From assembly GCA_032622095.1 (NCBI GenBank), contig CP136062.1, positions 18,419,739-18,483,738 of the forward strand: 64,000 nt of DNA, written 5' to 3'. The DNA is from Siphonodentalium dalli (taxonomy: Eukaryota > Mollusca > Scaphopoda > Gadilida > Siphonodentaliidae). The translations under genes were made by a program, and so were the position numbers. The notes below the pieces were generated by a model. The model was not told where the DNA came from. It worked only from the letters and a program-made list of their open reading frames with translations, and ran no database searches. Of the stretch, positions 13,766 through 61,316 are shown piece after piece (within the stretch, counting starts at the first letter, position 1; every line of letters starts with the position of its first letter).

Positions 13766-16700
13766 CTAAACCGAATCGGGCTTAATGACTGGATGTGTGG
13801 CCGAGTTTACTGCCGCATCTTCTTCAATTGGTATCACAGTCTGTGTGCTCAACATGATCGAAGAAGGAATAATGCTAACAGGCTCCGAAGACATGTTACT
13901 AGCAGGTTGCTGCATGGTAGGCTGTTCGAATTGAACTCTTGCTCCTTCCTTAGGCTGTTTTAGTTGAGTTAATGCTCCTTCATTAGGCTGTTGTAGCTTA
14001 ACTTGTTGTTCTGCATCTATTATCAGAGCACCTGGTTGTATATTTGTGTTAACGATTTGCGACAAAGAGGGCTGTTCCATTGGACACAGTTGTACATTTG
14101 GCTTAATGTTTGGTTGCGAGTGATGCTGTAGTATATCCTCTTGTATGGGCGCATGTATGGTCTGATGTACAGGTGCATGTGTGGTCTGCTGTACATGTGC
14201 ATGTATGGTCTGCTGTATGGGCGCATGTAGGGTCTGATGTATGACTGTCTGCACTTCTGGCTGTAGGTTTGGTTGTGTTTCCACTGGTATATTTGGTTGT
14301 ATATCATCTAGCACGTTTTGGGTAAGAACAAGTTTAACCGGAGCTTGTCTTTCTGTCCCATCAGGCTGTAGCAGGTGAATTGTTGCACCTCCATCAGACT
14401 GTAATAGGTGAACTGTTGATCCATCATTAGGCTGTTGTAGTTGAAGTGGTGCTCCATCATTAGGATCTAGCTGAACAAGTGCTGATCCAGAAGGCTGCAC
14501 GAACTGAACTGTTGTTCCTCCATCAGGCTGTACTAACTGAACTTTTGCTCCTACATTAGGTTGTTGTAGCTGAACTAGTGCTCTTCCAGAAGGCTGCACT
14601 AACTGAACTGTTGCTCCCCCATCGGGCTGTACTAATTGAACTGTTGCTCCTACATTAGGTTGTTGTAGCTGAACTATTGCTCCGCCAGTAGGTTGTTTTA
14701 GTTGAATTGTTGCTCCTTCATTAGGCTGTATTAATTGAACTGTTGCTCCCCCATCGGGCTGTACTAATTGAACTGTTGCTCCGCCAGTAGGCTGTTTTAG
14801 TTGAATTGTTGCTCCTTCATTAGGCTGTATTAATTGAACTGTTGCTCCTCCATCGGGCTGTACTAATTGAACTGTTGCTCCTACATTAGGTTGTTGTAGT
14901 TGAATTGTTGCTCCTTCATTAGGCTGTATTAATTGAACTGTTGCTCCTACATTAGGCTGTTGCAGTTGAAGTGGTGCTCCTCCTTTAGGTTGTACTAATT
15001 GAACTGTTGCTCCTCCATTAGGCTGTTTTAGTTGCACTGTTGCTCCTTCGTCAGGATGTATTAGTTGAATGTTCAATGGAACTTGACTTCCTGATCGCAT
15101 GATGCCCACCTTGGATTCCGCAACAACAGGTGTCATAAGTGTATTAGTATTCGTCACTACCACAGGCAAGAAGGAACCAGCTAACACTTGTCGCTGTGAG
15201 ACGTTTGGATAAACTTGCGGAACGTTGAACACTGAGAATGTTGGCTGCGGTAAAATTTTCAACCCAGACAAGGCCTGAATGACCTGTGGTGTTTGAACGG
15301 TATCAAGAACAAAGTTCTGAACCAAACCTTGCGTGTCACCAATATTCTGGTTCACGTTATATACGACAGGCTGAGAGCGCGGAACCTGAACCAACCCTTG
15401 TGTGTCACCGATATTCTGGTTTACGTTATATACGACAGGCTGAGAGCACGGAACCTGAACCAACCCTTGCGTGTCACCGATATTCTGGTTTACGTTAAAT
15501 ACGACAGGCTGAGAGCGCGGAACCTGAACCAACCCTTGCGTGTCACCGATATTCTGGTTTGCGTTATATACAACTGGGTGAGAGTGTGAAACCTGAACCA
15601 AACCTTCCATGTCGCCGATATTCTGAGTAACATTATATATGACTGGCTGAGAATGTGGCGCCTGAATGGATAGAGGCTGAGATGCGACAACTGATCCCTG
15701 AACATTTAGCATGACTTGGTGGTTTTCTCCAACAGAGTGAAGTCCTTCCTGCTGAATATGACCAGCAATAGCTGGTCCTTGAACATTTAACACGACTGGC
15801 TGGTTTTCTCCAATAGAGGGTGGTCCTTCTTGCTGAATATGACCAATAATTTCTCCACGTTCATTTGCTATTAATTGCATTATCTGAATATTTTCAATAT
15901 TTTGTGTGAATGTGGCATCGGCTGACTGGTCATTCGACTGTTCCGCAAAAGTAGATTCAATATCTTGTGCTTCAGTTATCTCAGTTGTTGAATTGAATAG
16001 AGTTTGTGAATTGGAAGGCTCAGTTTTAGAGCTAGAGTTTATCTGACTGGGATCATCCAATAGAATAGAGGTTGTTGTTTTTGTCGTCATTAAGGGGATA
16101 GAGGCTGTTGTTGTCGTCGTTAAGGGGATCGCTTGCATGTTACATGCTGCATCAGCAATTCTGTGTAAGCCAAAATTGCCATCGTAAAACTCGTGGTGAT
16201 CCTGATGAGATCTAACCTTGTCTCCACTCCTTTCTGATCTCCGCGGTCTTTCACGTTTCCGAACATCACGATTACTTATCCCTCTAGCACGACCGAGTTT
16301 TCCACGTCTTTTTTGCTGTTGTGTCAATGCTACTCTTGAAACCAATTCTTTAGTATTAATTTTGGAAAAGCTATCGGGAGGCTTTTCTTGTGACAAACTA
16401 TTGCCCGAGACATGATTTGTTCCGTCTCCAGATTCAACATTTTCATGTTGACCTGACCTCTGGAGTTGTAACACGGATAACGCAGTGTTATCTCCGTCGG
16501 CCGTGGATTCAGCATTTTCTTGTTGACATCCTGACGTCTGGAGTTGTAACACGGCTAACGCAGTGTTCTGTAGCGTCCTGTGAATCTGCTTATGCTGTTT
16601 CATATGCGACCTGAACGAGTCTTCTCTCACGAATGTCGAGTCACAACAATCACATAAATAAGGCTTTTTACAAATCGCCCGAGACGATTTCTTGGCGACC

Positions 16701-61316: not shown

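Follow-up and report, generated by a model that had tools for sequence, protein, structure and literature searches.

A predicted ZFP64 orthologue with a long linker and a repeat-built tail in the scaphopod Siphonodentalium dalli

A gene of Siphonodentalium dalli encoding an unusually long zinc-finger protein is most likely, as judged from its predicted product, a real orthologue of ZFP64, single-copy as far as searched and with long non-finger parts. Taken as a whole, the observations are probably best explained by a ZFP64 orthologue in which conserved DNA-binding fingers are combined with a flexible linker and an activation tail built from repeats. The window, i.e. the entire 64,000-nucleotide stretch of DNA analysed here, corresponds to C2:18419739-18483738 in the genome that was searched, a 2.23-Gb assembly of nine contigs. 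A single open frame results when seven minus-strand coding exons of the window, lying between 61303 and 13766, are joined by phase:

E1, 61083..61303, minus strand: carries the start codon along with the C2HC finger of the N-terminus (HICGIC...HKNEGC); its donor is gtgagt and it leaves phase 2.
E2, 50074..50351 (alternative acceptor 50357), minus strand: linker, 92 whole codons; takes phase 2, leaves phase 1.
E3, 29008..30777, minus strand: large Ser-rich linker exon of 1770 nt; phase 1 in and out; basic stretch at its end, preceding the fingers.
E4, 25977..26198, minus strand: two C2H2 fingers and the beginning of a third; takes phase 1.
E5, 22358..22430, minus strand: remainder of the third C2H2 finger.
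E6, 18073..18275, minus strand: two fingers and the beginning of the next.
E7, 13766..17100, minus strand: end of one finger, four more C2H2 fingers, a 937-residue tail and the stop codon.

The exon chain was built from C2H2 motifs, followed by scoring of GT-AG sites. All splice sites used were GT-AG and the phase was kept at six out of six junctions. The joined coding sequence of 6102 nt contained its sole stop codon at the end and encoded 2033 amino acids. Using the E2 acceptor at 50357 instead of the one at 50351 added two residues, which reproduced the protein of 2035 residues from seven phase-joined exons proposed in an earlier, sequence-only reading of this DNA. As a prediction, the exon chain and its length are well supported, and the seven exons are presumably spliced in this manner in vivo. 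Upstream of the ATG in E1, an acceptor at 61316 and then in-frame TAA and TGA codons were found; the acceptor suggests that a non-coding exon precedes E1.

With the E1 donor as used, an extra exon between E1 and E3 was required, because the phase 2 left by E1 does not fit the phase 1 taken by E3. The E1-E3 interval was scanned for acceptors scoring above 3 and donors above 2, with a codon model trained on the other exons of this gene and general splice weights; the length given in the sequence-only reading was not used. E2 ranked top among the scored minus-strand candidates of any phase in this interval, with a score of 45.0 against 8.5 for the next distinct phase-compatible candidate. The plus strand of the same interval reached at best 12.2 with the phase requirement and 19.7 without it, and none of 100 first-order Markov surrogates of the interval reached 45 (maximum 21.4). 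A stop-to-stop scan revealed two very long minus-strand frames of 1119 and 637 codons, while the longest frame per surrogate, over 100 first-order Markov surrogates made from the window, was 150 codons on average and 268 at most. A chance origin of such open frames is unlikely, since both the 1119-codon run and the score of E2 lie far above the respective surrogate maxima.

The joined protein contained one C2HC and ten C2H2 fingers, as counted on the translation. Five of these 11 fingers were compared with ZFP64 letters taken from either a solved structure or a published article, and all five matched. The reference letters were those of PDB 2dmd, which holds three ZFP64 fingers, and those of the mouse Zfp64 rescue oligos printed in PMC12178792, here translated; the oligos are stated in the available text of that paper to preserve the amino-acid sequence. 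The N-terminal C2HC finger in E1 was identical to the mouse Zfp64 fragment PDIHICGLCKQHFSNLDAFV (PMC12178792, available text) in 8 of 20 residues, the two Cys of HICGxC and the two Phe being among those shared. The E4 finger matched 2dmd residues 10-28 in 11 of 19 positions, the E5 finger stretch matched residues 37-56 in 12 of 20, and the first finger of E6 matched residues 65-84 in 18 of 20. The second finger of E6 (AKFKIxSDLK) shared 13 of 19 residues with the mouse Zfp64 fragment APFQCWLCSAKFKISSDLK; it follows the 2dmd set in S. dalli, and the place of the mouse fragment in the finger order is not given in the available text of PMC12178792.

The three adjacent 2dmd fingers were matched in order, as one collinear stretch covering chain residues 7-91 or 7-89. 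The first finger of E6, as a 20-residue query, retrieved 2dmd as the sole PDB sequence at E <= 1e-7. With a 52-residue query at E <= 1e-22, 2dmd alone among 16 PDB sequences had an individual stretch that passed by itself, whereas at the looser threshold of 1e-16 an 85-residue query also let single stretches of CTCF, ZNF568, PRDM9 and others pass. CTCF or ZNF568 ranked above 2dmd in the summed PDB scores. For the E5 finger query, two CTCF chains stood above 2dmd by sum, but their best single stretch gave 15.0 bits against 19.0 bits for 2dmd. CTCF, ZNF568 and PRDM9 share C2H2 fingers with the S. dalli protein, and the many fingers of their long arrays account for sums above that of 2dmd. These families were therefore rejected as better matches, their higher scores being sums over many fingers and the narrow tests favouring 2dmd.

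The S. dalli protein and mammalian ZFP64 (PDB 2dmd and 1x5w; mouse Zfp64 isoform 1) have in common the N-terminal HICG(I/L)C C2HC finger, the adjacent fingers CxxCxKxFSRxDKLKxH, CxxCxYAAxxxSSLxKHL and one starting CQ(I/V), as well as a next finger CxxCxAKFKIxSDLK. ZFP64 orthology, which had been claimed before, is thus well supported by the letters of 2dmd and those of the mouse oligos (PMC12178792, available text). The accompanying claim of an exact ZFP64 finger order was examined on the five of 11 fingers with sourced letters. Two further fingers, a pair in E7, matched the ZFP64 structure 1x5w in one stretch of 58.9 bits, a match that does not discriminate, as 2dmd (72.8 bits), Ikaros (63.3 bits) and CTCF chains (by sum) scored higher.

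Outside the fingers the two proteins differ considerably. Vertebrate ZFP64 is about 680 residues long, the figure behind the threefold excess in length proposed in the sequence-only reading, and the linker and tail of the mammalian protein are much shorter than the 734 and 937 residues predicted here. The linker of 734 residues, located between the N-terminal C2HC finger and the finger block, contained 15% Ser. The tail contained 14% Gln overall, and its repeats contained 16% Gln and 28% Val, Ile and Leu together. Pfam searches gave no domain for E2 and E3 and only finger families for E7, whose tail had no match. Codon usage in E3 correlated in frame with that in E7 at 0.58 for the first 366 E7 codons and at 0.56 for the rest. 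The out-of-frame correlations were 0.09 and 0.12 for shifted E3 and −0.01 and 0.16 for the shifted tail. Among the 57 tandem-repeat rows in the window, which overlap and are not independent, the period was divisible by three in all seven rows inside E3 and E7 and in 15 of the 50 elsewhere.

The tail was built largely from in-frame tandem repeats of 33, 69, 81 and 24 bp, three of which are given here:

14358..15073, minus strand: repeat of 11 codons (33 bp), about 22 copies.
15317..15652, minus strand: repeat of 23 codons (69 bp), about 4.9 copies.
15691..15845, minus strand: repeat of 27 codons (81 bp), about 1.9 copies.

The giant linker exon and the repeat-built tail described in the sequence-only reading were thereby confirmed, in the form of the 1770-nt E3 and of the tandem in-frame repeats. 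In the 69-bp repeat, five units gave a pN/pS-type ratio of 0.23 (pS 0.36), and the variable columns lay mostly at third codon positions (5/23, 7/23 and 13/23 at positions 1, 2 and 3). One pair of 81-bp units gave a ratio of 0.40. The 33-bp array gave a ratio of 0.57, based on the 18 of 24 units passing a motif filter, and its differences numbered 442, 342 and 401 at codon positions 1, 2 and 3. With this ratio and differences spread across the codon, constraint inside the 33-bp array is weak. The silent differences between units were large in the 69-, 33- and 81-bp repeats (pS 0.31-0.36), so the arrays need not be recent. The DNA of the 33-bp array was found in the genome only at this locus, plus a brief stretch of related sequence elsewhere in E7, and the idea of a genome-wide satellite is not supported by these matches. 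The other protein matches listed for the genome fell within the repeat region (query residues 675-925) and are probably low-complexity matches.

The strongest alternative concerns the direction of change and not the identity of the gene: a long linker and tail may be usual among the relatives of S. dalli, or ancestral, with vertebrate ZFP64 having been shortened and nothing having grown in S. dalli. The large silent differences between tail units raised our estimate for this alternative, which we now place somewhat below an even chance; in a comparison with vertebrate ZFP64, the growth of regulatory parts proposed in the sequence-only reading is indistinguishable from loss in vertebrates. Against it stands the make-up of the tail, which is largely tandem duplications, so that part of its length must have been gained at some point in the past of this gene. 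Searches outside the genome revealed no relative on which the direction could be read. When the E7 finger block was used to scan collections of viral and of prokaryote sequences, 6 and 20 pattern-matching stretches emerged, none of which encoded a relative. In a literature search, no paper combined the name ZFP64 (or zinc finger protein 64) with terms for molluscs or invertebrates, three papers listed under looser terms did not contain the name, and a word search found ZFP64 absent from the main text of two surveys of conserved C2H2 families (PMC3701560, PMC2889900). The available text of PMC8740411 holds nothing on the length of the ZFP64 protein.

A more specific account of the tail is that a conserved regulator gained its activation tail in this lineage by expansion of in-frame minisatellites found only at this locus, and that tail length could vary between individuals over a fixed DNA-binding block. 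We regard this as unlikely, because the silent differences between units allow for arrays that are old and stable. A literature search for minisatellites in connection with glutamine-rich activation domains returned no paper combining the two.

The length of the main product could also be overestimated. If E3 were a cassette exon, the main product would be a skipped form of approximately 1443 residues and the 2033-residue form would be minor or tissue-specific. E3 may indeed be skipped without a frame shift, since the phase 1 left by E2 is the one taken by E4 and the 1770 nt make up 590 codons. However, the splice sites of E3 are good (acceptor 8.9, donor 7.3) and its in-frame codon usage is E7-like, which argues that E3 is probably coding and often included, and if E2 were skipped together with E3, the frame would be lost for the E1 donor as used. 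A mainly skipped E3 is accordingly considered doubtful. It is very improbable that E1 and E2, or E3, are exons of another gene wrongly joined to the finger exons, as might be suspected from the long introns (approximately 10.7 kb for E1-E2 and 19.3 kb for E2-E3, from the coordinates) in a predicted gene model, given that E1 itself carries the ZFP64-type N-terminal finger, that all exons lie on one strand with phases agreeing at every junction and that the end of E3 is in phase with the exon starting the finger block.

The ZFP64-like gene had no close relative among the genome matches scored. E2 and E3 each gave one match in the 2.23-Gb genome, namely to themselves, and thus no second copy. The C-terminal finger block of E7 matched itself with 406.4 bits and the next locus with 51.8 bits, so that no closer paralogue was found among the best 150 of 9674 first-look candidates that were scored. 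Neither were retrocopies that would reveal splicing seen in the genome when E2, E3 and the C-terminal finger block were searched. The second match of the N-terminal finger was at C2:185135672 (E 6.5e-4, 51% identity over 39 amino acids), in another gene (L006 1652-1969) that opens with a similar C2HC finger (MDTFICGGCDVKFSDLQEFIVHKNQGC). It was set aside as a second ZFP64 copy, since the fingers nearby look by eye to be of a different type. The joined fingers had at least 329 matches in the genome, which suggests a large expansion of the C2H2 family. Many clustered C2H2 zinc-finger frames were observed on contigs C1, C3, C6, C7 and C8.

The window also contained several other repeated sequences. 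A near-perfect hairpin at 13584-13744, with arms of 80 nt that are 90% complementary and 1 nt apart, lies probably within the 3′ untranslated region, because it starts approximately 20 nt past the stop codon. At least 80 strand-wise matches to it, in about 40 places, were found genome-wide among the best 40 of 3093 first-look candidates that were scored, and it may represent a small palindromic mobile element. The region 61439-62181, just upstream of E1, contained inverted and direct copies that by eye resemble this hairpin element. A 22-bp minisatellite of about 118 copies at 19659-22353 begins at the fifth base of the intron following E5, and all 97 genome matches to its two-unit pattern fell within this array. 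Four tandem copies of a unit of approximately 1.35 kb were located at 400-5478, being 97-100% identical over the compared stretches of 262-300 nt. Two ORFs, 107 and 120 codons long, were present in each unit, and the pair from the first copy had no Pfam match. A 76-bp tandem repeat of 3.8 copies with 100% matches was present at 11397-11681. No tRNA and no Rfam match was detected in the window, and ten other ORFs of the window had no Pfam match.

For the ZFP64 orthologue preferred here, a mode of action may be proposed, starting from the exon chain, phases, five finger identities and repeat make-up as read from the DNA itself. The finger block, residues 769-1096, would bind DNA as mammalian ZFP64 does, given its conservation. 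The Ser-rich segment of 734 residues most likely serves as a flexible, presumably disordered linker ending in the basic stretch, which resembles a nuclear-localisation signal. The 937-residue tail, judging by its composition, is most likely a glutamine-rich activation domain that reached its length through local in-frame tandem duplication. Its many Gln and aliphatic residues presumably resemble the Sp1-type glutamine-rich activation domains, from which the S. dalli tail differs in being made of regular 11- and 23-residue repeats. The tail is the positional counterpart of the C-terminal region of mammalian ZFP64. A DNA motif, C-terminal transactivation and Notch binding are reported for mammalian ZFP64 in the available text of PMC12178792 and PMC10527061, and the KMT2A promoter is described as dense in ZFP64 motifs in that of PMC8973843. 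ZFP64 coactivates Notch1 and represses NUMB by recruitment of HDAC1, according to the available text of PMC10527061, and by the latter activity it need not be an activator only. A regulatory role of the linker and tail is plausible from their composition and by analogy with these reports on mammalian ZFP64 C-termini.

The S. dalli locus looks like a gene of unusual length rather than a new kind of system, and its value lies in an invertebrate ZFP64 gene model. If the length of the tail arrays does not vary between individuals, it would be an ordinary orthologue with long non-finger parts, useful mainly for annotation. If it does vary, the gene would provide naturally occurring activation domains of graded length attached to an unchanged DNA-binding block.
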